Positions 2,790 through 36,378 of a stretch of DNA of 64,000 bases are shown one piece after another. The DNA lies in contig OX485806.1 of the NCBI GenBank assembly GCA_950295325.1, positions 434,001 to 498,000 on the forward strand. Direction: 5' to 3'. Position numbers and translations under genes: made by a program. The DNA is from Polytrichum commune (lineage: Eukaryota; Streptophyta; Polytrichopsida; Polytrichales; Polytrichaceae). Positions within the stretch are counted from its first letter, which is position 1; the number at the start of each line of letters is the position of its first letter. The notes beneath the pieces are model-generated. The model was not told the DNA's origin. It searched no databases and worked only from the letters and a program-made list of their open reading frames with translations.

Positions 2790-2821
2790 TATGAACACTA
2801 TATTCGTTATTTGGAGACTTT
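2790..2821. repeat. Left TIR and TATG target duplication of the outer element
   Basis: TATG at 2790-2793 is followed by the left 28-bp terminal inverted repeat (2794-2821). It is identical in reverse complement to 36347-36374. Confidence 0.82.
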
Positions 2822-3127
2822 TTGTTAATTTTGAGACTATTTAAGGACGTGGCTTTCACATTTATAGGAATGAAAACACTACAAATATGCTATGTTCCCA
2901 ATATGGAAACAAATATGAAACTCAAATGCATGTAATTACACATATAAAAATAGGGAAATGGGACAATTACAACATTTGCATATAGGAAATCGATATCATA
3001 TTCATTGAAGAGGGTCAAAATACAAAATGCAAGTGGAATATCCACTATTAGGCCAAAGCCCTAGAAACACAAATCCACATCTATATGTATTTTAATATAG
3101 CCTATACATTTGGACCATGAATAGGCG

Positions 3128-3463
3128 TCACTCTTTTGTTTTTGAAATACTATTATTAGCCTTTGCGGCCGTTTCTTTTTCTTTTGCTTTCATGGCGTCT
3201 ATGGCTCTAAATATCTCGGCTCCGCGACTGTAACCTTGTTTATTCCCATTCCCAACCCTCGAATATATGCCATTTTCCCATATTGGCCGACCCCCTACCG
3301 AATAAGTGGAATACGAACGCGTTTGGGAAACCGAATGTCTTGCACTCTTTCGTAGGGCCAAACAACGATCAGACTCGCAAGTCGCAGTCTTCAGTGTTCG
3401 CCTATCCAATGACGGAGTGGAGGATTCACGTCCCACATCCATGTATATTGGGGTCTGAAACAA
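3128..3463 (-). CDS. Possible 3' exon or small ORF, unknown
   Basis: A 111-codon open frame on the same strand as, and downstream of, the methyltransferase/HAD gene. It is rich in Arg, Ser and Lys and ends in a basic Lys-Glu-Ala tail (KAKEKETAAKANNSISKTKE). A TTTCAG acceptor-like site precedes it, so it may be another exon, but no clear donor was found that links it to the exon at 3543-3998. No family recognised. Confidence 0.25.
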   Translation of the reverse strand: MFQTPIYMDVGRESSTPSLDRRTLKTATCESDRCLALRKSARHSVSQTRSYSTYSVGGRPIWENGIYSRVGNGNKQGYSRGAEIFRAIDAMKAKEKETAAKANNSISKTKE

Positions 3464-3542
3464 TGACCATAAATATATATAACGACGTGGGTTAGTATAA
3501 GTTACGGATGTAAGTCCGAAAAACCCAAGAATTTGAAATGCA

Positions 3543-3998
3543 CTAAATTAATATGCGGACATCATGAACGAAAAACTTGAGAATGCCAATAGTGGGGCAC
3601 CTTGGCCTTCGGGGCGGCGGTTTGATCTTCAGGGACATCGAGGGGAGTAGACACAAGCACAACCAGGACGTTCGTAAAGGCCGGGACATCAATGTGGGGT
3701 TCATCCATGCAAAGACGCCTGGTCGACCGCGGGTTTCGAACGTGCTTCTCATTGCGGAGGGGAGATGGGGATAGAGCGTAATAATATTGAGCTTTGCAAC
3801 CTTTGGAGGAGGGCTATTGACAACTCCGTCTTCGAACCCCGAGTCTTTGGAGTAATCCACGGCAAAGGCGGCATCGACGGCCGAAAATTGAAATAGTGAA
3901 GGCATTGAAACGTCGGTCACACCAATGGAAGGGGAGCTGGGGCCCGGCTGAGATGTAGACATGCCATGTCTGAGACTTTGGGATGCTTGGTGAGGCAA
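3543..3998 (-). CDS. Last exon (E) of the ParB/methyltransferase/HAD gene
   Basis: The acceptor TTTTTGTGCCTTAG at the right edge joins in phase 0 to the donor (GTATGA) at the end of the HAD exon at 4098, across a 99-nt intron. The exon adds about 151 residues: a Ser/Pro-rich start (QPGPSSPSIGVTDVSMPS), then a low-complexity, basic C-terminal tail ending at a TAG at 3543. No domain is recognised. The splice junction is inferred from consensus sites and phase, not from transcripts. Confidence 0.55.
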   Translation of the reverse strand: MPHQASQSLRHGMSTSQPGPSSPSIGVTDVSMPSLFQFSAVDAAFAVDYSKDSGFEDGVVNSPPPKVAKLNIITLYPHLPSAMRSTFETRGRPGVFAWMNPTLMSRPLRTSWLCLCLLPSMSLKIKPPPRRPRCPTIGILKFFVHDVRILI

Positions 3999-4097
3999 CT
4001 AAGGCACAAAAATACATTTACAAAATAAGGAGAGAAATGTTAGATATAAACATGGAGAGTCCAAGTACGGAGCCAAAAAGTATCAAAGTTCTCATAC

Positions 4098-4874
4098 CAA
4101 TTTATTGAGTTCAGCAAAGCCGTACAACCTCCTAAATTCTGTATCTCTTGGGCCTAGAGATCTATTGCCAATACGATTTGAGAGGACAAAATCCGGGACA
4201 CTTACGGAGTGATGGGCAAGCCTTCTAATGTAGGGTCCTAATTCTAACTCTAGGAAGTTGTCGTTTCTATCGCCCTCCCAAGGGTTCAGGAAAATGCAGT
4301 TGCCCGGGGGGTTGAGAACGCTCTTCGCCGGGCTGTCGTCAATGAGGAGCGTGTTCTCCGGAGTGGGCCAATAACCTTGGGGGACCCCCTCCAACATCGG
4401 GACGCCCACCCAGAGGTTCTTCCTCAGCACCTTAAGGAATTGAGGTCCGCGGCCTCCTCCGACCTTGGGTACAATCTTGCCGCTACGGTCATAAAGGTCA
4501 TCGCAGTGTTCTTGACCGAGAAGCAAGCACGGCATTGCGAGTTCTCGGAAAAGGAAACTGACGACGGCCTTCGTGTTGTCCATCAGCATGGAGCTCCAGA
4601 TGATGACATGGGCCAAGCCGAGGACCTCACGAAGGAAGCACCTCAAGCCGGGCCGGACGCACACAACCTTCTTGTTAATTAGTGTATCGAAGCGCCCGCC
4701 GTAATCCATGTCTTGTGGAGTACGGTAGGGACCCTTGGACGCACTATTGGAGATATGTGTGGATTGACAAAGCACGCCATTGAGGTCAAATATTATGAAG
4801 TTTTTCCTCATGGGCTGGCTTGGTCTTTCGGCGGGGTTGCGACATATCTCCGACGGACCCTGTGATGGCACATA
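4098..4874 (-). CDS. FCP1/NIF-type HAD phosphatase domain (exon D, or a separate gene)
   Basis: 259 codons matching the HAD-superfamily NIF/FCP1-like domain of plants. HAD motif I appears as FIIFDLNGVLC (exon residues 26-36), motif II lies in the VIIWSSM strand, a conserved Lys region follows, and motif III/IV is LLIDDSPAKS (about 176-185) before FLNPWEGD. The second motif I residue of the classical DxD is Asn here, so catalytic activity is uncertain, although DLNG variants are common in plant homologues. It can be joined in phase 0 to the upstream exon C (acceptor at 4875-4876, donor at 5203-5204), giving one polyprotein. Alternatively it starts at an internal ATG near 4811 as its own gene. 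No stop codons interrupt it. Confidence 0.78.
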
Positions 4875-5204
4875 CTACCTAGGTGAATGGCACTACCCAA
4901 GAAAACCAAATGACAAGCATGCAAAAACGCAACAAAGAAATGCGAGGCAACAAGTATCCGAAGAACTATCCAGTTCAAAAAATTGTATTAATGTGTTTGG
5001 TGATATACATTTCGCGAATAATTTACATTGTCACTAAAGGTCTCTCCTAAGATTAATTGAGCCTACACTAGCAAAATTGGATCCGCCGCCGCGGGCGAAG
5101 TCGAGATTCGAACTCGAAAATATGCACACGCCACGAAAGCTGGCTGACTGGGAACTTACGGACGCACGTCCGTAAAGAGGGAGGCATGCTCAAAGGTTGA
5201 TTAC
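4875..5204 (-). other. Putative phase-0 intron C/D with one palindrome
   Basis: Donor GAG|GTAATC and acceptor TAGGTAG|TATGTG on the minus strand delimit 330 nt. They enclose a palindrome copy, TTACGGACGCACGTCCGTAA, at about 5156-5175. The same arrangement (palindrome within an intron) recurs in the other introns of this element. Confidence 0.5.
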
Positions 5205-6593
5205 CTCTTCAGCGGTGAGTTCCTCGCCGGCAGTGCCTCCCTCACCAGGCCCAGTTGCGGGGCCAGGTTCCGGATGCGCGTCCGTAAATTCGCCCTGCGT
5301 GTCTTCCACCACCAACAAATCGGCTCCACCTGCTTGCGACGCTTGCGTGCCGACGAAAGGTTGATCCTCATGCGAGGAGTCTTGGCCCCCCCGCATATGT
5401 ACATCTTCATCGGCGAGGGGGGCGTCGCCGATGTTGACATCTTCATCGTCTCCTATGGCGGGAGGGGAGGGCTCTGGAGCGGCAGCAACCTGGGGAGGGG
5501 GCGGGACAACCAACGCGGGGGCCGTATAGGTGTGCTCCGGTATGTACACCGTGTGGCTGCTAGAAGGAGGGCGCACCAGAACGGGGGGCACGGACATGGC
5601 GGGCTCGGGAGCTGCATACACCACCTGGGGTCTTGCCTACAAACTTGCCATCATGCTCATGAATTGTTGGCTTTGAGCCAAGAATTGTTGATTTTGAGCC
5701 ATGAGGTCGGCGTGCCTCCGAGCAGACTCCAACCTAGCTTGCTCCATCTCAGCTTGGATGGCGGCCATCTTCCTGGCATGCTCTTCGTTGGCCTCCCGGA
5801 GCCGCATGTCAAGCTCTTCCTTCATCCTCTTCTCCATCTTCTCGTCCAGCTCGGAGACGGACATGGGCTCTCTCTTCACCTTGCCTGGCTCAGAAGGCAA
5901 GGCGGAGATGGAAGCGTACAGCCTCACCTCATCCTCGTCTTCATCTGAGAGTTCCAAGACGGCGCCTTCGGGGTATTCGTTGTAAGGTGTCTTGTTCCTC
6001 TGCCGCCGGCTTGCACGGTAGGAGTCGATATCGGGCCTCGATATCAACTCTAGCATATCTCTACCTTCCATGGGCGGGAGCGCCGCCTGCTCACTGGGCT
6101 CTCCCCCACCAGAGGACGCCGTGCATCCGGTTTCTGCAGCAAGGTCCGCATCCCTCTCCGCCATAAGCCTTGCAGCACGAGATGGGCCCACAGTGGAAGG
6201 AAGCCCAACTCGAGAAGTGGGAGTCCCAAAGGGTGATAGACTAGGCGTATTATGAGGCACCCGAATTGGAGTGACGTTGGGCTGCGCCTCCTCTGCATCC
6301 ATGTTGTCTTCACCCAGGAGATACGCCACGCGATCCACTGGATGACGAGCAAGACCACGCAAGTCTTCCTGCCTGGAGGGCTGTCCCCTTGGAGACATTG
6401 GATCATCGTCTCCATCGCTACCCCACCCACCTGCATGAGAAGGCTCCTCTCTAGAGGCAAGAGGAACAGCAGGATGTGGGGTAATGATATCCAAGAAGTC
6501 ATTGAGATCCATTTTCTCTGCAAGCTTCCTGTGATCTTTGCACTCATCCATGTCGCCAGCCCCCACAAACGAGTTAACCTGCAACCCAAGCAT
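5205..6593 (-). pseudogene. Methyltransferase C-terminal strand plus coiled-coil exon (C), one in-frame TAG
   Basis: The exon opens in phase 0 after a TTTGGTGCAG acceptor with MLGLQVNSFVGAGDMDE and DHRKLAEKM. This is the strand after motif I in N6A/N4C-type DNA methyltransferases (usually 'R.IG.E.DP.Y...A..R'). It therefore completes the fold begun in exon B. It is followed by an acidic Ser/Pro linker, then a charged coiled coil (DEKMEKRMKEELDMRLREAN through QNQQFLAQSQQF) and a Pro-rich tail. A TAG at 5637-5639 interrupts the frame between SMMASL and ARPQVVY; CAG to TAG explains it. The exon ends at the donor GAG|GTAATC at 5204. The downstream partner is the HAD exon. Confidence 0.62.
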
Positions 6594-6865
6594 CTGCACC
6601 AAATAAAAAAAGTTAGTGGATTGTTGGTATCAAGATTGAATTGACGGGGCAAATGGACATACAAACATGATGCAGTGTGCATTTTACGGACGTACGTCCG
6701 TAAAATACACACTGGTTTAGGTTTGATAACTTTACGGCTGCGCGGCCGTAAATATGCATTGCAGCGCGGCCGCAAAGTTGAAATGAACTAGGTGGTTACA
6801 CTTTACGGTCGCGCGGCCATAAAGTTGCATCAGGTGGAGGCATGAAAGTTTTTTTAAGTACTTAC

Positions 6866-8185
6866 CAATGCCGCATAAACAAATTTGGTCCCCCCGAAGA
6901 CGTTGTACACTGTCTCACTCATCACAGTCACAGCCTTCAATACTCCTATGTAAAAGTCCATTCGGAGCTCGGTTGCCGGGCAGATTGCGAACATCGCCTC
7001 GTCCATTAGCTCCTTGGGGTGTGGAGGCGGCAACTGGTAAATTTTCTTGAACACGCTCTTCGCCTTTATAGGCAAACGCCCACTTGGCGAAGACTTCCGT
7101 GTCAAGAAATAGATACATATAGCGCCGACCTGCTTTACCCCCCTTGCTTCTTCGATGACGGCGATGCCTTCCGTCTTCGCGGGGGCGTATGTGCTGTGGA
7201 AGATATTGTATTCGAGATCCATCGTCGAGTTGTATAGGTCGACGACCGCTGCGGATCTCTCTTGGTCCACAATCCACAGCCACACGTTTGGCTCCAGAAG
7301 TGCAGGGGACCGAAAGCTCTTGAAAGCTTTCAGGAAGCTGTCGTAGAAAGGGGTCCCCGGAGGAGGTTGTTTCCAAGAATTTGGAAATGCACGGAAATCA
7401 AAGATAGCAAAAGGACAACCCCGGGGGTCATCTCTCACAGTGGCCCGCGAAGCATGGGTGTCCCACTTGCCGAACTTCAATTGTGATGTCACAGCGCAAA
7501 ACCTCGCGACACCCTCGAATTTGGCATTCTTCTTTCTATCGAGGAAGTGTTTATACAAAGTTGTCTCCCTTTCGTCGATAGAACCTTTCTTCTCGTTCTT
7601 CCTTGAGCGCTGGGCCAAGAACGGAGATGTTGCTCTTATCAATGCCTTCATTGAGACGCCATTGATGTGGTATGCTATTTTCAATCCCCTCCAGTTGTCC
7701 CACACAATGTCACCATCTGCATCTGTAAGGTTGTAGGCGGGTACCAATTTGCCTATCTCCCTCATAGCCAATGTCTTCTTCTTCCTGTATTCGCACCATT
7801 CCTTAATATGGTACGTTGAAGGCTTCATAAACCTTGGTCGTTTGAGGAAGATTTTTGGATACGGCGCTGTCCTTCTCGGAGTCTCCTTAAGAAGGTGTTC
7901 TGCCGCCTTGTAAAGCTCGGCATCGAGCAACCCTTGGAGGGGACGGAAAAACTCTCTGAGGATTGGAGGCACCTTAATCTTCAGGTCCTCTTTGTACTTC
8001 TTCTCCGTCTCAAGGTTGATGAGTTCTCCGTTGCTGTGTGCATGGAAGACGCGCATTCAGATAGCCCAGGTCTTACCCAACGAAGTGATGAGCTTCAGTT
8101 CGCCCTTCAGATCTTGCACTGTCTTCATGCCGCTTTGCTTCATGTCAATGCTTGAGAACTTCGTCACAATCGCACTGCTGAATGC
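6866..8185 (-). pseudogene. DNA N-methyltransferase-like domain exon (B), one in-frame TGA
   Basis: The exon runs from acceptor ACTTGCAG|GCATTC to donor TTG|GTAAGT and encodes 440 codons in phase 0. The order matches beta-class, permuted N4C/N6A methyltransferases: a motif IV-position strand (CPFAIFDFRAFPNSW, about polyprotein residue 690), two further strands (NVWLWIVDQ and EYNIFHST), then motif I at the very end (VYNVFGGTKFVYAAL). It continues in exon C. The usual DPPY/NPPY catalytic tetrapeptide appears as DFRA, so the enzyme may be inactive or divergent. A TGA at 8057-8059 (one C to T from CGA) splits the exon, with AFSSAIVTKFSS... upstream and MRVFHAHSNGELINL downstream. Confidence 0.62.
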
Positions 8186-8339
8186 CTGCAAGTAGAGAAA
8201 CAAATGAGTTGTTGAAATGAGATTAAAAAATGGAATGAGAACAGTCTAGTTTACGGACGCGCGCCCGTAAACTTGGAGCACAGAAAGAGTGAAGGAGAAT
8301 TTACGGACGCGCGTCCGTAAATTCATTTGGGAATATTAC

Positions 8340-8630
8340 CTGCCATTTGGGATTCTTGACGACTGCGTTGTCCCTCTCTTTTGGTGGACAGCCGTGCTCC
8401 TCCCACAAGGTCCTACCAGCCACGATGTTGGCTGCCCATGACGCCTCAAACGCTTTGATTTTGTTTGTCTGGTTGAGGAAGGCAGATATGGCGATGAGCT
8501 GATTGGAGTCCTCTGAATGCACGAGAAGTGCCTTCCAATATCGGATTGTGGGTTTCAGAGGGCTCTTCCGATTATCGTCTACGAGGAGAGCTTTTGCCGC
8601 TTCCACGCTATGCTGGCCGTCCACGATGTA
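8340..8630 (-). pseudogene. ParB/DGQHR-domain exon A, distal part (right of the hAT insertion)
   Basis: This is the 3' part of exon A, beginning within YIVDGQHSVEAAKALLVDD. DGQH followed by an alanine-rich helix is the core motif of the ParB/Srx-like and DGQHR families. It ends at donor TGGCAG|GTAATA. The reading frame continues exactly into 24121 once the hAT element and one 8-bp duplication are removed (999 + 291 nt, both multiples of three). The domain is known from ParB partition proteins and phage or bacterial DNA-modification proteins; its role here is inferred. Confidence 0.65.
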
Positions 8631-8900
8631 CAGGGTTGTCTATTGTGTCGTGACGGAGGGTAATCCCGACATAATGTCGTGCCGTCACGACACGTATCCG
8701 TCACGACATTATGCCGGATGCTGTCTTTATCCTGACGGACTTGAATTTTACCGATTTTTTTGTGTAATTACATTAACCCATTTCTGACACGTAGGATTTA
8801 CAATGTCCACGTGTGATGACATGTCAGCAAAGTAAAGGTAAAGTGGGGAAAATTTTACTAGAGCCCGTCCGCCCCCCCGTCCGCCTCCGTTCCCAACCCC
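8623..8900 (+). repeat. Left end of the hAT element: target duplication, TIR and subterminal motifs
   Basis: ACGATGTA duplication (8623-8630), TIR CAGGGTTGTCTAT, then GTCGTGACGG motifs in both orientations (about 8643-8715). About 240 bp from 8631 are closely matched at 55951-56190 in the small non-autonomous relative, which defines a conserved family end. Confidence 0.88.
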
Positions 8901-9572
8901 CGTTCGCCCCCGTTCCCCCCCGTTCACAATCCCATTCGCCACCGTTCCCCCCCGTCCGCTCCCGTTCCCAACCCCGTCCGCTCCCCCGTCCGCCCCACCC
9001 CCGTCCGCCCCCCCCCCCCCCCCCGTCCGGCCCCCCCCTCCCCCGTCCGTCCGCTCCCCCGTCCGCTCCCTTGTCCGTTCCCCCCCCCCTCCGTCCGCTT
9101 CCCCGTCCGCCCCCCCCGTCCGCTCCCCCCCCCGTCCGTCCGTTCCCCCTTCCGCTCCCCCGTCCGCTCCCCCGTCCGTCCGCTCCGTCCGCTCCCCCGT
9201 CCGTCCGCTCCGTCCGCTCCGTCCGCTCCCCCCCCCCCCCGTCCGTCCGCTCCCCCCCCCTCCGTCCGCTTCCCCGTCCGCCCCCCCGTCCGGTCCCCCC
9301 CGTCCGTCCGCTCCCCCGTCCGCTCCCCCGTCCGCTCCCTTGTCCGCTCCCCCGTCCGCTCCCTTGTCCGCTCCCCCCCCCCCCTCCGTCCGCTTCCCCG
9401 TCCGCCCCCCGTCCGCTCCCCCCCCCCCCCCCCCCCCCCCGTCCGCTCCCCCCCCCCCCCCCCCCCCCCCGTCCGCTCCCCCCCGTCCGTCCGCTCCCTC
9501 GTCCGCTCCCCCCCTCCGTCCGCCCCCCCGTCCGGTCCCCCCCCCCCCCCCCTTCCGTCCGCTCCCCCGTCC
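8870..9572 (+). repeat. GTCCGCTCCC array upstream of the transposase promoter
   Basis: About 700 bp of almost G-free plus strand built from CCGTCCGCTCC-type units and C runs, ending about 10 bp before the TATA box of the transposase gene. Open frames across it on either strand are repeat artefacts. Extreme strand asymmetry could favour R-loops or non-B structures. C-run lengths are likely to be unreliable in assembly. Confidence 0.85.
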
Positions 9573-9582
9573 GATTCGAATA

Positions 9583-9590
9583 CTATAAAT
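9583..9590 (+). promoter_or_regulatory. TATA box of the hAT transposase gene
   Basis: CTATAAAT lies right after the GTCCGC array and about 240 bp before the ATG at 9828. A 5'UTR intron is likely, because TTTGCAG|GTTTTG precedes the start codon. Confidence 0.5.
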
Positions 9591-9827
9591 TGAGGGTTCA
9601 AGGTGCCATTTTTGCCTCCACTGACATAGTGTGTCTCAAGTCTTTTGATTCTCCTTTGAGGAGTGAGGAGTGAGGATTGAATGCGTGAGACCCGAATGCA
9701 GAGGATACTTTGTCCAATCTAGTGACTGTGAATTAGGGTTGCCCTTGTGGCACTCTTGAACAGGACCTAGTATGCGATCAAAGTTACTTGCTCTAACTTG
9801 TTTGTATTTGCAGGTTTTGTTGAAGTC

Positions 9828-12800
9828 ATGCCACGCCGAAATGATGCATGGGATCATTGGTACGAGGATAAGGGGATGGTTCCCGGTAAATCACAAAGGC
9901 AGGTTAAATGTAGGTTTTGCCCGTTCGTCATATCTTACCGAGGAAATAGAATGTTGGCCCACCTTGGTTATAGACCTCCTGTAGGGGGTGCTTGTGATGT
10001 TTCCACATGTAGGATGGTACCCCCGCATATTAGGGTCTTGTTTGAACATTGCGGAGGCATTGTGCCCTTACATGTAGGCATTGTAAATGAGGACTCTCCG
10101 GTGCCAGATATTGTACCTCTGGAGCCTATTATAGCGGACTCCGTAATTAGTGAAACAAAGCCTTTGCTTATGTCCCAATCCACTCAACATTCTGATGTTG
10201 TGATATATGGCACACCTCCTCGTGAACTACGTCAACTCAACATAACGGAGGGGTTCAATGTGTCAACAAAACAACTCCTTGATAGAGCATGGGCAACGGC
10301 TTTTTATGAAGCTAACATTCCTTTCAACATTGTGAGACATCCTGCATTTGTTCATGCTGTGCGTGAAACTGCCTGTCATCGAATGCCAGCCTACACACCA
10401 CCATCGTACAATGCCATCCGTACGAAGTTGTTAACTGATAAAAAGGTTGACCTAGATAGGCAAGTGAAGGAGAAGATGGGGAATTCCGTTGAAAAATACG
10501 GTGTTACAATATGTTGTGATGGATGGGACAACGTGCAAAACCGACCTCTCCTAAACGTTCTCCAATGCGGCACAAAGGGAGATGTTTTCTTGGGTACCAT
10601 TGATACCACGGGAAATCACAAGGATCATGTATACGTTGCTGCTCAAATTCAACCATTTGTGGAAAAGGTTGGTCGACATAATGTGGTCTAGATTTGCACC
10701 GACAATGCCCCAGTTATGGCCTCCGTTGCTCGCGACTTGATTCAAGCAAATCCCGATCTATATTTTCAAGGATGTGCTGCGCATTGCCTAGATCTCCTCT
10801 TAGAAGATTGGGGGAAGGAGGAATGGGTGAAAAAGTTGGTAAAAAAGGCGCGCCATATTTGTGTTTTTATCAAAAACCATCATGCTTCTCAAGCTATATT
10901 CCGGAGGTTGTCACCAAATCTCTCACTCCGCCTACTTGTAGAGACCCGTTTTGCAACGAACTTCATCATGATAGATCGTCTTCTTCAAGTACGCAATGCT
11001 TTGGAAAGAATGGTGGTTGATGAGGATTGGCCTACTCTAATGCGTGATATGAGGAGGAGATCTCGCACCTCTTACATGAAGGGCTCTGCTGTGCGAAGCT
11101 TTATACGTTCTGATGGATTCTGGAACACGTGCGAAAATTTCTTGTATATGGTGATCCCGGTTGTTAAAGCTCTTCGTGTATTTGATGGCAAGGCGCCTGC
11201 AATGGGAATGGCTTGGAGGGTCATGCATGATTTACAAACCCATATTCGTGGATTCAGTAAACCTCCATTTTGCTTAAGCCCTGAGCTTGCTGCAAATGCT
11301 ATGCTAATGTTTCAAAATAGATGGAGGTTGATGTTGAATGATCTACATTGGGCTGGAGCGATGTTAAATCCGCTTCTACGTGGTTGGGCCCCACTCCATG
11401 AGGATGAGAATTCGAGGACAATCCTAAATCGAGTTCTTCGCAGGCTTGCTCAAGATGAGGACACTTATGTCCAAATCCTCCACCAGTACCAAGATTTCCT
11501 TGAAAATCGAGGGCCTTTTGCTGATTCTACTGACCCGAACGTGCATGCCGCACCTCTCCATGAATGGTGGGATGCAATGGGAGGTGGAGCTAAAGCCCTC
11601 CAAACAATAGCAAGTATGTTCCGCATCCTTGCACAAGTATGTTCCGCATCCGCATGTGAACGCAATTGGAGCATGTACTCATATGTTCACAACAAGAGTC
11701 GCAATCGCTTGAAGCATAGTCGTGCCGAGGACCTCGTCTACATATATACCAATAGTAGGTTCATTCGACATCGGAGGGGCCCAAGACCTGCGCAATGGTA
11801 CGAATTGAATGAGGTCCATTCTGACGATGACCTTGACGAAGAAGATGACGTGGATCCAAATGATAGTGCCGGAAATGATGATGACAACAATGTTGATGAC
11901 ATCGACTTTGATTTGGATGACCTCAATTCCAAGAATCATGATTCAGAAGATGAGGATGGCAATGGTAGTGATGGAAACCTTGGGGTGTTTGATTTTGATG
12001 AACCGGATGTCCCCCAACATAACGACGGAATGCATGACGATCATGAGGGGTCTATTGGAGGACCGCCTTTTGAAACTCTCCACATTGGACAAGGGTTTCG
12101 CCCTGCCCATAATGTTGCTATGGGGGCAAGTGAGAATGTAGGAATTGAAGTAGATTCCTTGCAACCTCGGAGCGATTCTCTTTCTTTTGGTGAAGGTGAC
12201 AATGTACTACCCGCAAATGAGCCAACGCACGTTCAATAGGATCCATTTCCAGCCCGAGTACATTCTGAATCCATGGACGCCTCCCTCATATCCAACCATC
12301 GTATAGAAGATCAAACGCCCAATGTTCCTGAAATACCTACAACTCGATTCCGTGCTCTTCAAAGAACTGCATCAACCTCTACGGTGCAAGTGCATGCACA
12401 AGGTCAACGTCGTCCTCTCACTCGAAGTATTGCCAATACTTCTAGATTGGGTGTTTCACGTGCAACTGCGGTGGGTGCTACTTTGGTTGCTATACACAAT
12501 GTTTCAAGAAATGTTACTACAGAGGCGCCACGTCGTCATTCTGTTCGTCGACATGTTGTTGAGAACATACCAATTGCAATTCCATCCGCATCAGTTTCAC
12601 TTCCACACAGTCAATCCAATGGAACATGTGGCCTTGGAGTTGGAGGCGGAAGTACAACGGGGGATGTTTTTATAGATGGAAGTAGAGATGAAGTGCACTC
12701 AAGTCGTGGTACGGGTGGAGGGCGTCAGAGAACTACGAGAGGTGTCAAACGTACTAGGAAGAGGTATCAGGGAAGATCGCTTCCGTTTACTGCTGAAGAC

Positions 12801-13019
12801 TACAATGAAGATGAGGGTAGACCACATCTAGATGAAAATGGCATACAGGATGCAGAGGGCTCCCGGCCGACCAAGAAGATAATTTTCTCACAACGTGACC
12901 GAGAGTTGCATCTTCGGAGCGCGACTCCCCAAACGGATGATGATTGCAGCACAGACGAGTCTGAAGAGAACCCAAGATGTGTCGAAGCAAATGATCCCAC
13001 AGTACGGATTCGAACGTAA
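9828..13019 (+). pseudogene. hAT transposase (BED, DUF659, hAT-C) with two in-frame TAG codons
   Basis: One continuous frame from MPRRNDAWDHWYEDKG, interrupted only by TAG at 10689-10691 and 12237-12239. In order: a BED-type zinc finger near the N-terminus (VKCRFC...HLGY); a DUF659 region with first catalytic Asp in CCDGWDNV and second in ICTDNAP; the CAAHCLDLLLEDWG motif; the hAT C-terminal dimerisation region with CERNWSMYSYVHNKSRNRL; then a long acidic Asp/Glu tail. The first TAG stands two residues before ICTDNAP, where Gln is expected (CAG to TAG), and removes most of the catalytic core. The second lies in the acidic tail, followed by about 260 codons of open frame. It sits directly downstream of the left terminal array and would mobilise this element if read through. 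Confidence 0.88.
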
Positions 13020-13718
13020 TGGTTTTGCACAAATGTGGTATTTCGGTGCTCCCACGTACTCCCATAATTTATTACTTACGTCAAAATTGATACAAGTTAC
13101 AACCTTAGGGCCTTCGGTAAGACATTTAGACCACAAAGCGAACGTTACCTTCGAAGTTGTAACATTTTATTATAGTAATAAAATTATTTATTGCATGTTT
13201 TTTAAAATTTTGAAAATACAATATGGTTGGCAACTCAGCATTGCAATTAATGTCCAATAACATGTTATGCCTTTATTAATTACTATTTTGTATAATTCTT
13301 ACTGTGAATGGAGTTTTATGTTTATTTATTGAGCTTCTTAAAGAATATGTTTTTATAAATATTGCAATTCCCTATTGCTCGATTGTACATGCTTCGTTGG
13401 TGACATCCTCTTTTTGAGGACTTTTCTATCCGTTTTATATAATTATATCTTTATGTGGTATTCAATATTAACTATGTAGTCAATAGTACTTTTGGTTAGA
13501 CTATCATATGAATTACTAATATTCAAGTAAGTTTTTACAAGTTTCAAATAACATTAAAACATGTGGCATCCATATGTTATCTTTTACACGATCTTAGAAA
13601 TGACAACTTGTCGGTAAATCCTCTTTATATTACATATACTTTGAACATGAAATATGCTCATTGTGTCCAAAGTCTTCATCCGTTCCTATACAACTTCCTA
13701 AACATGGTACAAAAATGC
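13020..13718. other. AT-rich spacer between convergent transposase and RING genes
   Basis: AT-rich, no ORF of note. It would hold the 3' ends of both convergent transcripts. Confidence 0.4.
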
Positions 13719-15992
13719 CTAATCCGAATCTGAATCGAGGTCTATTCTAACTGAAGTAGATCCTCGTCGTGCTCGTGATGATTCCCCCGCTTCCATGCTT
13801 CGCGTTATTCCACGGGTGAGGTATGGACGACTACTAGGAGACAATGGAACGGCATTACGTGGTCTAGGCCCACCATTTAGCCATCTCAATACCGCATCAT
13901 CCGCAACTCTATGCAAGAGTGCATCAATTGCAGCCAACTGCAGCATGTTCTTGTGGTACCCCACCTCTAACTGCAATTCATATCTCGGATCCCGTTCCGT
14001 AGGCATGTCATCTGCATCTTCTTCCAAATCATGCTCCGATACTGATTCGAGACCTGCTGCATTGTACCAAGGAGGATGAATGCCTCTCTTTAATTGTCTG
14101 CTGATTGAATCCCAATGCCATTCAAGAGTTTGGTACAAAAATCTTCTCAAGCCATGATCGGGGGGCTTGTTGGAATACAACTCGTCTGCAACATACAAAA
14201 TTTGACGTGCATTCCGTGTCCAGTCGCCATCTCTGTTCTCGTGCCATAGCTCAACCTTGACACAATTGTATAACCAACTCCATTCAACATTCTCCCCATC
14301 AAACTCTTGAAGATCGAAGGGAAAGTCCCATGGCTTTAATACCCAGTCGTTAGGCATGTAATCCCGAAGGCCAAATTGGAGGTACAAACGAGGGTGGAAG
14401 GGTGATCTGCAATGAGGACATTGGCGTTTCTTGATCATATTCTCTATTAGACATTGTGGATGGAATTGGGTCCCACATGATCCAACTTGATAGCATCCCT
14501 CTGGGCCAAATAGACATTGGCAAATCGCACATGCGGTTCCGTCGAAGACCATTGTATGTGGATTTGGCCATAACAACTCATCCCTCATGCGGAATGGATA
14601 TTCATGCACTTCGATCACATCCCAATGGTGATCTGGGTCGGTCACTTGACGCCAATCGATGCTCCCGCTTGGCAATGTCCACTCATTATCCCTATCCCAC
14701 CTACTAGGGTACATCTGCTCATCTTCTGGCCATGACGTGAGCATCATATTCCGCATTCTCTGATTGCGGTTCCATTCTTTCTGGATGCTCTCAAACTCAG
14801 CTTCAAATTGATGAGCCTTGGCCATAGCAAGCAATGTGCTTGTCCTCATATTTTTGCGCTCCACAATCGCATACAACAGAACTTTCTTCAACCTTGCATT
14901 CTGCTCCTCCAGTCCGCCAATCTTGGCTTCGTGATCAACAACCACTTCATTGACCACTTGAAGTTGTTGTTGCATGTCCACCACCTCCTTTTGCAAAGCC
15001 TCTATCTTTCCTCGCATTACTTCATTCCTCATACATACCTCCAAAGCTTGTGACTTTGCAATCTTGGCCTCCTGTAAAGTTGCGTCCCTCTCTGCTTCCA
15101 AAGACTGAAGGTTAATTGGTGTACTACTTGAACTTCTAGCCTCCCCCATCGTAAGTGTTGCAACTCGATTTTCCAACTCGAAAATCATCGTTTTATACTC
15201 ACGAATTTCCAACGCATGTTGCTTACACAATTCCTCCATTCTGCTCTCAGTCGGGTCCGCTCCATGTTCACCAAGGTTTACCTCGTCTAGGACCTCGTTA
15301 ACCACGTCGTTGATCAGGTTGTTGACCTCGACATTTGCCTCCATGCCCTCATCCATATGCTCAAACACCTCCTCGATGGCCATCTCCACGTCATTGGCTG
15401 GTCGTTTACGATTACGCGGTTTTTTTGGTTCCCGACCCTCTGGAATTGGGGCCCCAGGCTCGTCCACTAGTCGAGGATTCCTCCTGAACCACTCCGGAAC
15501 GGGAGTGTATGGAATATCTGGAACTGTGCATTTAGTGAATGCAATTCCAATACCCCCAAATTTTTGACCATGCAGGGTAGCCAAACTTGACCAATCCACC
15601 CTAACTCGCAACACGTGCTCCGCATACATCATACACGCCACCGACTTTGGAATTGCACTTTTGGGCCATCTATCCAAATTGGAGATACTTCTAAGTATCG
15701 TTAGGAATCTCCATTTTGCCTCCACATCATCAAGCTGCATATAACTCGCACTGATGGCCTTGCAGTGTCGCTCGTGACAAGGTCTTGGCCATAACCGATC
15801 AAAGTGAGGGAAGCCCACGTACTGCATTGCAGTCTTCACTGACCACGGTTGTGGTACATTCTCCCAACCTGCCCTGGCTTTTTGGGTGTTGTCATCATAA
15901 ACATCCCACTCCAACCCAGCAGCCTTGCGTACATGTGATCTGTGACAACCTAATCCCCCACTTGCCATGTCTCCAGATCCTCCACTTGCCAT
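13719..15992 (-). CDS. RING-finger coiled-coil protein carried by the hAT element
   Basis: An intact frame of about 757 residues from the first ATG (15992), ending at 13719; an in-frame GTG lies 30 nt further upstream. The N-terminal third is novel and has a basic cluster (EPKKPRNRKRPAND), consistent with nuclear entry. A long coiled coil follows (about residues 280-420). A C-terminal RING-like zinc finger reads CAIC...C...C...HPQC...CPHC (about 488-532 from this start), after which comes a Trp-rich region and a Ser/Asp tail. RING proteins usually act as E3 ubiquitin ligases; that role is inferred. No stop codons or frameshifts, unlike the transposase. A TATA box on its strand lies at 16461-16467, just below a GTCCGC array. 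Confidence 0.78.
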   Translation of the reverse strand: MASGGSGDMASGGLGCHRSHVRKAAGLEWDVYDDNTQKARAGWENVPQPWSVKTAMQYVGFPHFDRLWPRPCHERHCKAISASYMQLDDVEAKWRFLTILRSISNLDRWPKSAIPKSVACMMYAEHVLRVRVDWSSLATLHGQKFGGIGIAFTKCTVPDIPYTPVPEWFRRNPRLVDEPGAPIPEGREPKKPRNRKRPANDVEMAIEEVFEHMDEGMEANVEVNNLINDVVNEVLDEVNLGEHGADPTESRMEELCKQHALEIREYKTMIFELENRVATLTMGEARSSSSTPINLQSLEAERDATLQEAKIAKSQALEVCMRNEVMRGKIEALQKEVVDMQQQLQVVNEVVVDHEAKIGGLEEQNARLKKVLLYAIVERKNMRTSTLLAMAKAHQFEAEFESIQKEWNRNQRMRNMMLTSWPEDEQMYPSRWDRDNEWTLPSGSIDWRQVTDPDHHWDVIEVHEYPFRMRDELLWPNPHTMVFDGTACAICQCLFGPEGCYQVGSCGTQFHPQCLIENMIKKRQCPHCRSPFHPRLYLQFGLRDYMPNDWVLKPWDFPFDLQEFDGENVEWSWLYNCVKVELWHENRDGDWTRNARQILYVADELYSNKPPDHGLRRFLYQTLEWHWDSISRQLKRGIHPPWYNAAGLESVSEHDLEEDADDMPTERDPRYELQLEVGYHKNMLQLAAIDALLHRVADDAVLRWLNGGPRPRNAVPLSPSSRPYLTRGITRSMEAGESSRARRGSTSVRIDLDSDSD

Positions 15993-16467: not shown

Positions 16468-16469
16468 CC

Positions 16470-17490: not shown

Positions 17491-17496
17491 CCTCCG

Positions 17497-25163: not shown

Positions 25164-25793
25164 TTTACGGACGCGCGTCCGTAAACTTTCCACAGGTTGT
25201 TTTGAATTATAGTGTCAGAATGAACTATCCGAAAAGATTTTGCATATGTCAATACGAAATTTCACATGTAGTTTACGGACGCGCGTCTGTAAACTATCAA
25301 CGGGTAGTTGGGGATGAGAATCTCAACTATGAACAAAGATAAGATTTAATAAGAAAGTTCTAGTTTACAAACGCACGTCCGTAAACTAGTAGTTGGGTTT
25401 ACGGGGTTAGCACTAATTTACGGACGTGCGTCCGGAAACTAGGAATGGGGTTTACTTGGATGTCACTAGTTTACGGACGCGCGTCCGTAAACTAGGAATG
25501 GGGTTTACTCGGATGTCACTAGTTTACGGACGCGCGTCCGTAAACTAGGAATGGGGTTTCCTCGGATGTCACTAGTTTACGGACGCGCGTCCGTAATCTA
25601 GGAGTGGGGTTTACTTGGATGTCACTAGTTTACGGACGCGCGTCTGTAAACTAGGAAAATATACTGTCCATTAGTAATAATATTGTTTTTTAAATATATC
25701 CAGAACTTACGGACGCGCGTCCGTAAGTTCTGGATATATGTTGCATGCTTCACCCACATGGTGCGTCAAAGTTTACGGACGCGCGTCCGTAAA
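25164..25793. promoter_or_regulatory. Palindrome array upstream of the ParB/methyltransferase gene
   Basis: Ten copies of the 20-24 bp palindrome TTACGGACGCGCGTCCGTAA or close variants, at about 25164, 25272, 25362, 25418, 25470, 25522, 25574, 25628, 25705 and 25772. Five lie in a ~52-bp tandem repeat (25414-25655: palindrome, AGGAATGGGGTTTAC, CGGATGTCACTAG). The array sits just upstream of the minus-strand gene and mirrors a second array before the plus-strand gene, consistent with a divergent control region or protein-binding sites. Confidence 0.78.
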
Positions 25794-26878: not shown

Positions 26879-27957
26879 CACTACAAGAAAAAACGGTTCC
26901 GTTCCAACAGAGTTCCAACAAAATTCTGTTGATTCTACCTGTTGATTCGGAACTCTTGATTCGGAACAATTTTAACACATATCTCTTGATTGAGGCATTG
27001 GTTAAATGTCCAAGTTATACTAGTAAAAAAGATAAAAAATCTGTAATTCCGCTACTCACATTCCAAGCCTATACACCTACTACCAAGGACCGCCTTGCCT
27101 AGGACCTAGCCACCTACCTAACCTAGACTAGGGGCAAGGGTGAAGGCCAAGGGTATTGATCCTTAAACCTCTTGGCTACCGCAAGGAGGCCTTAGCCACT
27201 AAGCCACCACTCATCACATGATGTACAATGAGTATGTAAGACACTTGTATAAAGAGGCCGTAAAATTTATAATTACATAGATTACATAATTACATAATTA
27301 CATAGATTACATAATTACATAGATTACATAATTACATAATTATAGTAATTACTGTAATTACTGTAATTGTTTTTATTACTATAATTAGTTTAATTTCTGT
27401 AATTAGTTTAATTAGTCATTTCTGTAAATATTTTAATTAGTAATTTCTGTAATTACTTTAATTAGTAATTTCTGTAATTAGTTTAATTAGTATTTTCTGT
27501 AATTATTATTTCTGTAATTAGTAATTATTGTAATTACTTTAATTACTTTAATGAATAAGTACAATAATTAGAGTAATTGCTAATTAGTAATTACAGCTAC
27601 TATAAATAGAACAAAATTACAATCATTCACAATTTACTATAATTTTAAATTTAAGTAATTAAATAATTAAATATTGCAAATTAATCAAACTATTTAATTA
27701 TTGTAAATTATAGGAATCATAGTAATTGATTACTTTAACATAATTAGTGTTATTTAAAAATTAAAATACAATAATTAAAATTCCTCTGTTGAAATCAACA
27801 GATAAATGATCTTCCTCTGTTGAAATCAACAAATAAATGTTCCCTCTGTTGATTTGTGTCGCACAATGGATCCATTTCAACATTGTTTTTCCCAAATCTG
27901 TTGAAATCAACAGAAATTAGTTGATTTTATGTTGATTCGGACTGCGATTTCTTGTAG
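26879..27957. mobile_element. Non-autonomous CACTA-like element (1.08 kb)
   Basis: Starts CACTACAAGAAAA, the typical plant CACTA terminus, and ends TTTCTTGTAG, which lacks the final TG. GCG flanks both sides (26876-26878 and 27958-27960), fitting the 3-bp duplication of CACTA elements. Subterminal CTGTTGATTC and CTGTTGAAATCAACAG motifs occur at both ends. The middle is a TAATTACAT-rich AT tract. No transposase. Confidence 0.75.
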
Positions 27958-31836: not shown

Positions 31837-32574
31837 TTTATGGACGCGCGTCCGTAAACATTACATCTCTTGACTTATTTTCTTATTGAATATCTCATAT
31901 CTTATTGAATCTCTCAGTGGCTCGTTGCATCATTGAGTATCTCAATCTATTTTCATTGGCTCATTGAGCATTTACAAGTAGGTTTACGGACGCGCGTCCG
32001 TAAACATGCATCCTTTTGGTGTCACATGGTGGTATGTCATCTACAATGTGGGCTGTGAATTATTATCTATTTTGATAGTATGCATATTTGTTCTGATGAA
32101 TATTTACGGACGAGCGTACGTAAATCTTGAACCTTTTGCATCTGTTCTAGTAATGAGGTAAAGGTAGGTTTACGGACGCGCGTCCGTAAACATACAAACC
32201 TCTTGCATCTGTTCAAGTAATGAGGTAAAGGTAGGTTTATGGACGCGCGTCCGTAAACATACAAACCTCTTGCATCTATTTAGTAATGAGGTAAAGGTAT
32301 GTTTACGGACGCGCGTCCGTAAACAGACAAACCGTTGGTACACATTCAAATACATTACTGGTAAGGCCAGGAAGTAAAATTTAGTGTAAATGTAAATGGG
32401 GTTGGGACTTCTTGGTTCCTTGCAACCCTATTTGTTTTGGACACAATTATCATTTGACATAGGGATGTTTACGGACGGGCGTCCGTAAACATACATTGTC
32501 TAATTTGCCAAGACGTTTGCACCTAACCCTGACATCTCTTATCAGATAATGATTTGCGGATGGGCGTCCGTAAA
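31837..32574. promoter_or_regulatory. Palindrome array upstream of the DUF7869 gene
   Basis: Eight copies of the element's palindrome at about 31837, 31982, 32104, 32170, 32235, 32300, 32468 and 32553. Four fall in a 65-bp tandem repeat (32090-32340: palindrome, ATACAAACCTCTTGCATCTG, TAATGAGGTAAAGGTA). It ends 54 bp before the start codon at 32628. With the 25164-25793 array it frames the gap between the two divergent genes. Confidence 0.78.
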
Positions 32575-32627: not shown

Positions 32628-35600
32628 ATGGATTCCGACGTCGGTGATAGTGCGTCCGATTTCTCCTCGGAACCGTCAAGCTATGCTAGCGAGTTTGAAG
32701 ATGTCGTGGAACATGAAGCTACAAATGGTGTGGCCGATGCAGATGATGAAATCATACCACCATGTGAGGGTTATTCGCGGGAGCAGTGGGTTGATCTTGA
32801 TGTTGTACTACTTAATGCATGTGCCGTTCCCGTGGCCAACGGTGTTTGTAGGAACTCGAATCCAACGGATTGTATTGATGCAAAACCCTTCGGGGAGGAC
32901 GATGTTGGGGTGTGCATATTGAACTCCTTACTTCCATTGGAAGTGCCTCCTGGTTGGAGGTTCTCTCTCCGTCGATGGCCTTTGCGAAGTGTTCATCACG
33001 ATGGTGTGAGCTTCTGGGATCAATCCCGCCGATTTGAGCAACTGCAACAGTCTTTGTTCGCCACAATGCGTCCCAGACAAGGTCGTCGTAAATATGATTC
33101 CGTTCGTGTGCCTCGTGAACCCACGCAGCGTCGTCGAGATCATACATTGGGAGACACATCTATTAGGTCCGTAGCCACGAAGGATTGTTGTGCGAAGAAG
33201 TGCTGCCAACTATTTCCCCGTGACAAAATCAAATCTTTGAGGCAAGAGATGTGGCTTGCCGACTTTCGTATGCGGTCTGCCAAGAAACTTGAAGTACATC
33301 GCAACATGCACTTGGATGCCGGAGGTTGTAAGGTTGTGACCTTGGAAAATATAGAAGTTTGTTGCCGGGCATGGTACATTATTCATGCCGTTTCAAAGGC
33401 AGATTTTTATAGGTTCCGGAACTACTCGCTGCAAGGAAGGCGTTCTCGGTTCCATGGCAACTCAGGTACAAAGAAGCCCAAGGAGGCAACACTGCAAGCG
33501 GCTGCAACTTTGTCAACCATCATTATGCCATTAGCGGATGCAATGCCACACAAGACACGCACTTTGCCGTCGGGGGAAAAGGTTGTTCAGATGGTTTTAT
33601 CCACAAGGACAAAATGGAAGAACATACTCGTGGATGTTAATGAAGTTGGTGAAAATGTTGGATGTGGGCCGATTTCGTTGTCAAAATTGAGTGTGATCAA
33701 GAATCAACAGTTCACTGAATACATTACGAAGAGACCCGGGGATAAGTTTGCTAGGTGTTCTACTTGTGAAAAATATAAAGGCCTTCGAGACGTACATCCA
33801 ATAAGGACCGAGTCGCACACCAGACATCAACAGAAATACATTGAGCATGTCAACAACCAGGAGGCACACCGTCAAGACTACTACAAGAATCGCGCCTTAT
33901 CAATAATGAGGCCGAACGAGGTGTTGACAATCATTCATGACAAAATGGACCATGCGAAGACCGCTTGCCCTTGTTATGTTCGGAAAATAAAGGCCACATA
34001 TGGATATTTCAAGCTGCCAATATCTGTCACAGGTTCGTTGGTTTTCATTTTTTTGGCGTGCCCACATACTCATTTTTAAGAGTTACGGATGCGCATCCGT
34101 AACTCGTCTGTGCATGGTTGTTCCTTACTTGCGGCAATATCATATTTCCTTCATATATATGATATTGGAATGTACTTCTCATTTGTATGTCTTAATTCAG
34201 GTATGATTGCACATGGCCATGTGGACGTCAAGTATGCACATTATGGTTTGGATTTCTATCCAGACGACGCCAATCATACCGTAGGGTCTTTTGCAAAACT
34301 TCTACGAGATCTTGAGAGTCCGCCAACATCATCCTCGCGTGCTCTTTTTGTTGGATGTGGAACAACTCCAATTTATGAGGCTGTGCTAGAGGGGAAGGAA
34401 GTTTGTCTATCTTCACTTCAAGAACCGCCTGAACAATCCGTTCTTGCTAAACCTTTGCCTCGAACTCTACACGTGCAACTTGACAATTGTGCCAAAGATA
34501 ACAAATGTCGATACGTGTTTTGTTTTTAGTCATTGCTGGTAGCCAAGGGCATTTTCAAAGAAGTGTTTGTGTCTTTTTTGATGGTTGGCCACACGCACGA
34601 TGACATCGACGCTTCATTTGGACGTTGGAGTATGAAGTTGCACGAGGAGGATTTTCCGACAATTCCTCTTCTCATGAAATCATATATGGATTTGGACAAT
34701 GTGCCAGTCATTCCACATTTGATTGAAGAAGTGCCCGATTTCAAATAGTTTATAAAACCATTAATTCTTAAGGGGTTTGACCGACTAGTGGGCCACACCA
34801 AGGCTCAACAATTCCGATTTTATATGCGTGATGATGGTCTGCCCGCCATGCAATTCAAAGTTTTGTGCACTTCCCCGAATTGGGGTCCGGAGGAAGGGAT
34901 ACTCATTTGGCGCAAAAACGAAGATGGCAAATGTGTGCTACCTGATGGTGAGCCGAAGCCTTGCACACCCAGCCCCATGAGGAATGGGCCAGAAATCATC
35001 AAAGGTATATCCGGATTTATTGAGTATTGGAAAGAATTGTGCGAGGAAAACATCACAAGACGTGTTAGGGATACCCACGAACCATTGATTGCGTATTGGG
35101 ATCGCATTCGCACGGCATTGATAGCACCCGATGTTGATACACATTCATGTTAGACATAAGGGTTTTGGCCACAAAGTCGAGTGACAGTCGTGGAATCTGA
35201 GGCCATGTTGTTCAACAATGGGGACGTTCGTGAAGAGTTCGCTGCGGACGATCATTACGTTGGCCATGCTCGCAATCGACCGGAGCCGTCGTTTCGTGTT
35301 GGGGTTGATTGCCACGAAGGTTATTTGCTGCTCGTACGTGCTGGGGATGAGGAGCATCCCAAGCCAATTTGGTTGGTGAAAGCATTGTCATCACCAAACT
35401 TTGTTCCAACTAGTCCAAATTTTTGCCAAATTGAGGTGGAATATTGCCGTCCAAGCACCAAAGATCAAAATGTGCTCCGGACATATTTAGGGTGGGACAC
35501 CAAAAAAGGTTTCAAATGGACAATGGACTCATCATACGAACCGGTTTGGATAAACACAGATACCATACTTTGTGCTTGGAAACCACGCAAAGGTTCGAAA

Positions 35601-35729
35601 TCAAAGACAATGACCATCCTGCAAAAACATATAGATTTTGCCAAAGACAACTTGGCACGTATCGCAGCTGCAGAAAACGATCTTGAAAATGGAAATGAAG
35701 TTGAAGATGAAGATGAAGAGGGGGAATGA
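32628..35729 (+). pseudogene. DUF7869-type candidate transposase, two exons, four in-frame stops
   Basis: Starts at ATG 32628 after a CTCTTGTAG acceptor. Exon 1 (32628-34032) and exon 2 (34201-35729) join in phase 1 as Val-Thr-Gly-Met, giving a 978-codon frame. In order: an acidic N-terminus, Cys motifs (DCCAKKCC; FARCSTCEKYKG), VLTIIHDKMDHAKTACP, then AHGHVDVKYAHYGLDFYP, VQLDNCAKDNKCRYVF (about 561-576) and FLMVGHTHDDIDASFGRW (about 595-612), which are the hallmark of the DUF7869 family. It closes with a WLVKALSS...VEYCRP region and an acidic tail. Asp in HDKMD, Asp in LDNC and the GHTHDDID acidic cluster could form a DDE/D site; this is inference. Stops at 34527 (TAG), 34746 (TAG), 35151 (TAG) and 35157 (TAA) each need only one C:G to T:A change. 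Confidence 0.72.
34033..34200 (+). other. Intron of the DUF7869 gene with a palindrome
   Basis: Donor CACAG|GTTCGT and acceptor TTCAG|GTATGA, 168 nt. Contains the perfect palindrome GTTACGGATGCGCATCCGTAAC within 34080-34105 (given here in overlapping parts: left arm GTTACGGATGC, right arm GCATCCGTAAC). Confidence 0.65.
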
Positions 35730-36346
35730 TATTGATGTACGTCGGGACCAAAGTTAGTTGAAATGTGTATTTGTTTGTCATTAATATATGACATTGGGGT
35801 TGAATATTATATTAGACACATTTTATAGATTACAACTAGTATAATATTATTGCATGACTGTATTGATTTACGGATGTGGAATCACCCTTCCCATGCGCTA
35901 TCAAATGTTTTCTAGTATATGTTTATATTTACGGATGTGGAATCCAAACTATTTAATATTGCATATTATGTTAATTTGTAAATTCTAATTAACATTGTCA
36001 ATTTATTTTAAGTATTGTTGCAATTGGGATGTGCCATTCAATTCAACCACAATAGGCCAAGAGCTTTATGTTTCGGATGCGCATCCAAGAGTCAATACAT
36101 ATAAAATTAGATGGCTATTTATGGATTCATTACTTTTGTTCAACACAATCCCAAAAAAACCAAATAATCGTGTAATTGTGTCATTTGATTCTCATCCCCA
36201 TACTTACTATATTTAGTAATATATAGTTCCATCGCATATGGATTTCTAAAACATTATGATGTAATTGTTCCCGATGTTCCCGATGTTCCCTACGTTCACA
36301 ATATTCGCATCCGAAACTATGGGTCCAATTTATTTTGAGACTTTCC
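35730..36346. other. Subterminal right region of the outer element
   Basis: Non-coding, AT-rich, with half-palindromes TTTACGGATGTGGAATC at about 35868 and 35930 and TTCGGATGCGCATCC at about 36073. These look like decayed copies of the element's palindrome. CCCGATGTT is tandemly repeated near 36270. Confidence 0.5.
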
Positions 36347-36378
36347 AAAGTCTCCAAATAACGAATATAGTGTTTATG
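36347..36378. repeat. Right TIR and TATG target duplication of the outer element
   Basis: 28-bp inverted repeat (36347-36374) followed by TATG (36375-36378). Just inside, GAGACTTT-CC-AAAGTCTC forms a small hairpin that is absent at the left end. Confidence 0.82.

Follow-up and report, generated by a model that had tools for sequence, protein, structure and literature searches.

The window analysed here, 64,000 nucleotides of the moss Polytrichum commune (contig OX485806.1), contains two identical inverted repeats that enclose genes and many short palindromes. This raises the questions whether the enclosed DNA is a mobile element, to which class it belongs, and what acts on the palindromes.

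Ends, copies and decay of the element

A copy of a giant DNA transposon occupies positions 2794-36374; its features are compiled in Table 1. The earlier note had proposed such an element on the basis of 28-bp terminal inverted repeats (TIRs) flanked by TATG, and genome counts bear this out: within the source genome of 408 Mb, the 28-mer has 83 exact matches, 39 of them forward and 44 reverse, and 1,994 matches with up to three mismatches, the reversed-pattern control giving 0 in both cases. From the match list, 21 inward-facing pairs (42 exact ends) can be read off, the window copy included, which leaves 41 of the 83 without an exact partner in the vicinity. Among these 41, at least one lies opposite a one-mismatch end at a distance of 17.3 kb (C1:36951047 and 36968396). 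Of the 21 exact-TIR pairs, 20 (11/11 and 9/10 in two batches) show the 4-bp target duplication, also claimed before, precisely where element and flank meet, the sole pair without it being C4:8945685-8967844, and its letters differ from copy to copy. The genome counts against zero controls, together with these duplications, rule out chance TIRs and duplications. Size and cargo are odd for a DNA transposon, but given duplications of such varied sequence, and Pfam scans of 18 ORFs without any capsid, polymerase or terminase family, it is hardly credible that the locus is a product of chance, a segmental duplication or an endogenous virus.

Ten copies were read completely and measure 16,525-18,205 bp. 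Ten full copies align with the window copy over 16.2-17.0 kb at 97.3-99.1% identity, and all ten are alignable along almost the whole element. ORFs of both genes are present, some of them disrupted, in all seven copies for which ORFs were listed, in agreement with the expectation that the two genes recur between the ends. TIRs without the genes, named beforehand as evidence against the element, occur only in an ordinary sense: one (L051) of the four variant-TIR loci read has just the terminal 54 bp in common, as expected of relatives or non-autonomous derivatives. The element is real mobile DNA of about 17 kb with many near-identical copies. The window copy itself is dead, because a hAT transposon and a CACTA-like insert interrupt it and its candidate transposase gene contains in-frame stops (in exon 2, TAG 34527, TAG 34746, TAG 35151 and TAA 35157). 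Without both inserts its length is about 17.0 kb, which replaces the previous estimate of about 18 kb without the hAT insertion.

Table 1. Coordinates of the element's features in the window
Feature	Position	Strand	Basis or remark
Left target duplication TATG, 4 bp	2790..2793		sequence read at junction
Left TIR, 28 bp, AACACTATATTCGTTATTTGGAGACTTT	2794..2821	+	exact match
Left gene, last coding part(s), two overlapping stop-to-stop ORFs	3128..3998	-	similar ORF stretches in second family, by eye; borders approximate
NIF/SCP-like phosphatase exon	4092..4874	-	PF03031, E 3.6e-14; second-family homologue at 59%
Palindrome core ACGGACG-NN-CGTCCGT, downstream of exon C	5158..5173		motif scan
Left gene exon C, linker; internal stop in window copy	5205..6593	-	gene model, copy comparison
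Palindrome core, intron B-C	6686..6701		motif scan
Left gene exon B, methyltransferase-like domain	6866..8185	-	gene model and predicted fold
Palindrome core, intron A-B	8303..8318		motif scan
Left gene exon A, 3' part with ParB-like DGQH segment, interrupted by hAT	8340..8630	-	copy alignment
Nested hAT transposon, foreign, 15.5 kb, 8-bp duplication ACGATGTA	8631..24112		Pfam scan and duplication
Left gene exon A, 5' part, start codon 25119-25117	24121..25119	-	in window copy open pieces only, e.g. 24550-24900
Six exact palindrome cores (25167, 25473, 25526, 25579, 25709, 25775)	25167..25790		partly within 53-bp tandem array 25360-25657
Nested CACTA-like insert, foreign, 1.1 kb, flanks GCG/GCG	26879..27957		copy alignment
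Four exact palindrome cores (31986, 32172, 32305, 32471)	31986..32486		partly within 67-bp tandem array 32103-32333
DUF7869 candidate transposase gene, exon 1	32628..34032	+	gene model
DUF7869 intron with palindrome GTTACGGATGCGCATCCGTAAC	34033..34200	+	palindrome at same site in copies L023, L019
DUF7869 candidate transposase gene, exon 2 (PF25273)	34201..35729	+	Pfam match and gene model
Right TIR, 28 bp, AACACTATATTCGTTATTTGGAGACTTT	36347..36374	-	exact match
Right target duplication TATG, 4 bp	36375..36378		sequence read at junction

Genes and relation to known elements

As had been recognised earlier, two divergent multi-exon genes lie between the ends. One is the DUF7869 gene, on the forward strand; the other, on the reverse strand, is a ParB/methyltransferase-like gene, here called the left gene. 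DUF7869 very probably represents the transposase, of DDD type, because models of its relatives show an RNase-H fold and invariant aspartates. The DUF7869 alignment comprised 44 sequences; the fold model of the homologue P0039 gave a middling Z-score for RNase-H and no significant Foldseek match. A domain of unknown function thus acquires a strong candidate role.

According to its predicted fold, the left gene encodes a domain with the N-terminal fold of ParB and a methyltransferase-like domain. Of the traits that characterise ParB as a CTPase loading at parS, a CTP-binding motif and a helix-turn-helix, the tetrapeptide DGQH is present, which presumably stands in place of the canonical ParB motif, and a helix-turn-helix was not identified in the low-confidence model. 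At the spot where an active N6/N4 DNA methyltransferase has a DPPY-type catalytic motif, inspection by eye of the alignment consensus and of the same model found DFRxxP. Because the DPPY-like motif seems to have been swapped in this way, the methyltransferase domain might have lost catalysis, and the protein may therefore recruit or exclude instead of methylating. Sequence searches of the left gene against Pfam, PHROGs and solved structures gave sub-threshold matches only; a first protein search found 3 relatives and a profile search 80. Within-family dN/dS values (left gene: exon A 0.69, B 0.49, C 0.99, NIF 0.51; DUF7869: exon 1 0.99, exon 2 1.33) were uninformative and were dropped as proof of live genes.

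Sola elements are described as having a DDD transposase, 4-bp duplications and TIRs of 11-1124 bp; they are mostly 2-9 kb long, can exceed 15 kb, and are known in Physcomitrella (PMC10741241). The moss element matches this description in its 4-bp duplication, its 28-bp TIR and the modelled DDD/RNase-H fold, and differs in size from most Sola elements. Sola1-1_Ec32 from Ectocarpus (21.5 kb), likewise above 15 kb, has, antisense to its transposase, a gene that combines ParB with a DNA methyltransferase (PMC12477816), the arrangement found here. Compared with the algal element as described there, the methyltransferase motif of the moss element looks degenerate and a phosphatase-like exon has been added. 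We conclude that the element is probably of Sola-1 type, and the earlier statement that no nameable family fits was too strong, as Sola-1 shares both the duplication length and the opposite-strand gene. The likeness to Sola is one of described features, and DUF7869 is unmentioned in the literature searched, which would suit an element that founds a superfamily of its own; in view of the duplication length and DDD transposase (PMC10741241) and of the size class and gene arrangement (PMC12477816) as described for Sola, we regard this as rather unlikely.

Other assignments fare less well. VANDAL/MULE elements make duplications of 7-12 bp, and Ginger elements have TG...CA termini (PMC10741241). 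With a duplication of 4 bp and termini AA...TT, the moss element belongs to neither. KDZ elements make an 8-bp duplication. The duplication here is 4 bp, and no KDZ transposase family appeared among the Pfam results; of the analogy with KDZ elements drawn previously, the giant size and the accessory genes hold (PMC12477816), but it is weaker than that with Sola-1.

Palindromes and their lineages

The private palindrome family described in the earlier note was recovered: in each of two copies examined, all 12 perfect palindromes of at least 16 bp belong to one family, against a shuffle mean of 0.35 (n = 20). About 26 non-coding sites of the form TTTACGGACG-NN-CGTCCGTAAA are spread through introns and spacers, the division into coding and non-coding sites being subject to the approximate borders of the last left-gene exons. 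The idea that the palindromes are shielded from methylation decay was tested and found no support.

The same genes occur in a second family, whose palindromes are exclusively of the form TTTACGAACG-NN-CGTTCGTAAA (26 exact sites versus 0). Of this family 27.8 kb were read, with a single copy beyond 2.3 kb; this stretch yielded neither the right TIR nor the catalytic exon of DUF7869. Exon 1 stops at about residue 414, probably owing to another insertion, and the transposase is seen in its N-terminal part only.

The palindromes might be RNA or DNA hairpins that serve in splicing, in transcriptional pausing or as small-RNA precursors, or might have spread passively by tandem duplication or symmetric repair, with no dedicated binder. 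Such an origin would agree with the symmetric extension of single-site flanks in site-specific letters, up to 46 bp, with the 53-bp and 67-bp tandem arrays, and with variant sites altered in both arms (L023 3939-3960 and 14706-14731). In the second family, however, the half-site stays constant from site to site and only the two bases at the centre differ, and all 26 exact sites of the copy read have one symmetric change in common. Recognition by a protein fits this better. Many sites lie outside the gene models. We consider hairpins or passive spread unlikely.

In the translated read-through tails of left-gene homologues, palindrome type follows lineage in 12 of 12, 7 of 7 and 8 of 8 cases, counted with reading patterns that were set post hoc, after inspection of the tails. 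These counts derive from 81 relatives, of which 54 lack an unambiguous palindrome reading (49/61, 2/9 and 3/11 by lineage) and stand outside them, as does the ambiguous LRTxVRK form. Fisher's test of lineage 1 versus 2 gave 2e-5, related proteins being taken as independent. The motif of the third lineage was deduced purely from translated read-through; five of its eight readings fit exactly (P0162, P0163, P0164, P0169, P0173) and three partially (P0161, P0165, P0171). Lineage 1 is not perfectly uniform, with the deviant arms LRPRGRK (P0127, P0133), which corresponds to the GGCCG variant site seen in element copies, and LRPRVRK (P0124).

Alternatively, the DUF7869 transposase itself or some host factor could bind the palindromes as internal sites, and the ParB-like protein would have nothing to do with them. 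Both genes co-diverge between the families, so that the agreement of palindrome type with lineage cannot set the left gene apart from the other, and the DUF7869 model has an additional C-terminal BAH-like region. In copy L023, on the other hand, the sites span 0.7-14.7 kb of 17.0 kb, mostly in introns and spacers, and none is at the TIRs; in addition, loading at palindromic parS sites is described as a property of ParB (PMC10653881). We judge this alternative to be quite improbable.

Possible self-recognition

Taken as a whole, we think it fairly probable that the locus is a giant cut-and-paste transposon, probably of Sola-1 type, with a ParB-like protein that acts on the element's own palindromes. 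The DUF7869 transposase would, in all likelihood, cut at the 28-bp TIRs and insert with a 4-bp stagger. The ParB-fold/methyltransferase-like protein may dimerise on the palindromes, with each half-site bound by one subunit, and may load along introns and spacers; once loaded, it could alter the chromatin state by self-marking or anti-silencing, and the element's genes would therefore stay expressible. The complete rewriting of the palindromes between lineages would reflect co-evolution of protein and sites. More tentatively, with slightly less than even confidence, we suggest that the transposon lineage has built a self-recognition system resembling parS/ParB, in which each family maintains dozens of palindromes of one type in its introns and spacers as labels for its own ParB-methyltransferase-like protein, and this protein would mark or shield that family alone. 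At least three mutually exclusive codes would have arisen, through symmetric half-site change in at least one step, and families sharing one genome would therefore not cross-activate.

A giant Sola-1 element with a ParB-methyltransferase gene is already published, and the palindrome system is the new part. The authors of the algal work suggest that accessory proteins of this kind may bind to the transposon that encodes them and modify it; the accessible text names no target for them, and the word palindrome is missing from the main text (PMC12477816). The moss element offers candidate targets whose every letter is given and which number in the thousands, and specificity has been swapped naturally between families within one genome, so that the idea of a self-marking transposon becomes directly testable. 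Bacterial ParB/Noc/VirB-parS systems have the N-terminal ParB fold and palindromic sites in common with the moss element (PMC10653881), whereas the moss protein is fused to a methyltransferase-like domain and resides in a eukaryotic transposon. The anti-silencing system VANDAL/VANC of Arabidopsis works in a similar way: introns and upstream regions of the element are rich in a short motif, which is amplified in tandem repeats and shifts along with its cognate protein (PMC5735166, PMC10398659). VANDAL belongs to another superfamily and uses another protein, and the moss motif is a long, strict palindrome; if the proposed self-recognition is true, sequence-specific recognition of an element by its own protein would be known from a second and independent case, this one built on a protein of prokaryotic type.

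Copies of the element and their target duplications

The window (C4:434001-498000) belongs to a source genome of 408 Mb in 64 contigs. Seven of these, C1-C7, measure 42-78 Mb each and together hold about 406 of the 408 Mb, which suggests that the assembly is at chromosome level and that this bryophyte has n=7; this number fits Polytrichales mosses. In a whole-genome search, the 28-bp TIR of the element gave 83 exact matches and 1,994 with at most three mismatches; the reversed pattern, used as a control, gave none in either search. Counted by hand, the exact ends form 21 inward-facing pairs with a spacing of 16.5 to 43 kb. Ten pairs read end to end are 16,525-18,205 bp long, each with a perfect 4-bp direct repeat at its borders; for ten more, of which the ends alone were read, nine have the repeat. 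Its letters differ among copies. The 4-bp target duplication, which the earlier note had proposed for the window copy, thus recurs in 20 of 21 exact-TIR pairs, window included. Pairwise, copies of this first family share 16.2-17.0 kb at 97.3-99.1% identity; the family has therefore moved recently.

Features of the window copy and its inserts
Feature	Position	Strand	Remark
Left TIR	2794-2821		AACACTATATTCGTTATTTGGAGACTTT, 28 bp
Right TIR	36347-36374		inverted AACACTATATTCGTTATTTGGAGACTTT, 28 bp
Nested hAT	8631-24112		8-bp duplication ACGATGTA
RING-finger-like ORF in hAT	13719-16055	-	just below Pfam curated cut-off
Protein-kinase-like ORF in hAT	21300-23168	-	just below Pfam curated cut-off
Nested CACTA-like insert	26879-27957

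The window copy is dead: exon A of its left gene is severed by the hAT, and its DUF7869 gene, the probable transposase, has in-frame stops at 34527, 34746, 35151, and 35157. This frame stays open in other copies; in L017, two exons splice to give 979 aa. The hAT is giant too (15.5 kb, with long C/G-rich tandem repeats) and is a second cargo-bearing element in the window.

Palindromes in two families and in protein relatives

In each of the first-family copies L023 and L019, all 12 perfect palindromes of at least 16 bp stem from one shared family, whose core is mostly ACGGACG-NN-CGTCCGT (type 1), plus symmetric variants; shuffled sequence contains a mean of 0.35. At up to five mismatches, L023 has 28 sites, compared with none in ten shuffles. 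Non-coding DNA, half of the element (exon borders are approximate), harbors 26 of them, and the palindromes are located in introns of both genes and in intergenic spacers, some in tandem arrays. The 13 window sites with exact arms are all within the element, none of them inside the nested hAT. A genome search for the exact type-1 22-mer centred on CG gave 878 matches (control: 0); among the matches listed, 50 in number, all but one isolated site lie in clusters. A palindrome-like site of L023 (element coordinates 2475-2496) lies within coding exon C and encodes FTDARP. At 7437-7482 of L023 and at other sites, site-specific flanks lengthen the palindromes symmetrically to as much as 46 bp, a pattern that would be expected if both arms were repaired in the same way.

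Among four variant-TIR loci read, L052-L054 form one group with the terminus AACACTATATTCGGTATTTGG, their terminal 54 bp being 92.6% identical to family 1. A second-family copy (C1:2444300-2472140), read as far as short of its right end, contains the left gene (43% and 52% to the left-gene protein P0121), the NIF exon (59% identity to family 1) and, further inside, DUF7869 exon 1 (70.5% aa and 73.8% DNA identity). It has 26 exact ACGAACG-NN-CGTTCGT (type 2) sites and none of type 1; each of the 11 family-1 copies has 12-16 type-1 sites and none of type 2. The half-sites differ by a single symmetric substitution in both arms. Type-2 22-mers with open centre number 2,909 exact matches in the genome (control: 0). 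The NIF/SCP-type phosphatase in the downstream part of the left gene (window 3128-4874; L052), kept in both families, is seldom expected as cargo of a transposon; its substrate may be RNA polymerase II. The variant-TIR locus L051 (C1:2259800-2262100) has, across about 2.1 kb, only the terminal 54 bp in common with the second family, and may represent a non-autonomous derivative or else a further, third family.

Many public left-gene relatives are single-exon frames reading through into non-coding DNA, so that the palindrome is legible in translation. The type was called from the base that varies: FTDxRP and YGRxSV are compatible only with type 1, FTNxRS and YERxFV only with type 2. These patterns were drawn up post hoc with the tails already inspected. 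Palindromes were readable in 27 of the 81 relatives compared: type 1 in 12/12 of lineage 1, type 2 in 7/7 of lineage 2, and another motif (VWVDRPK, FGSIDPN, LGRSTQ) in 8/8 of lineage 3. The latter, judged from translated protein alone, back-reads to the putative palindrome TTTGGGTCGATCGACCCAAA, exactly in five cases and partially in three. Neither reversed proteins nor the 119 DUF7869 relatives matched any of these patterns. Some lineage-1 relatives have further variant arms.

Affiliation and proposed mechanism

The earlier note could name no fitting family; this claim was abandoned, as gene pair and 4-bp duplication agree with Sola-1/Sola elements as described in PMC12477816 and PMC10741241. 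The element is therefore a probable Sola-1 variant, assigned by described features. The word 'palindrome' is absent from the main text of the Ectocarpus paper (PMC12477816), and listings from a literature collection with few subscription journals showed no report linking lineage-specific palindromes to ParB-methyltransferase transposons.

The transposase probably mobilises the element, and the ParB-like left-gene protein would be the natural palindrome reader. The latter role is suggested because, according to excerpts of PMC10653881, ParB loads at palindromic parS and its relative VirB uses a site of this kind to relieve silencing. In Arabidopsis, the VANC proteins of VANDAL elements act analogously via short motifs, which have multiplied in introns and upstream regions and diverge together with the VANC protein (PMC5735166; PMC10398659). 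Two results run counter to this proposal: among ten copies, palindrome CpGs decayed equally to other CpGs, with no slowing, and the palindromes are somewhat more variable than the remaining non-coding DNA. They argue that these copies, most of them dead, have not been protected lastingly, but they do not bear on binding.

On the transposase side, a second clade of DUF7869 relatives (P0105, P0108, P0112, P0116) carries the extra Pfam domain PF26133. In the predicted structure of the relative P0039, residues about 800-936 form a C-terminal BAH/SH3-like region, possibly a chromatin-targeting domain.
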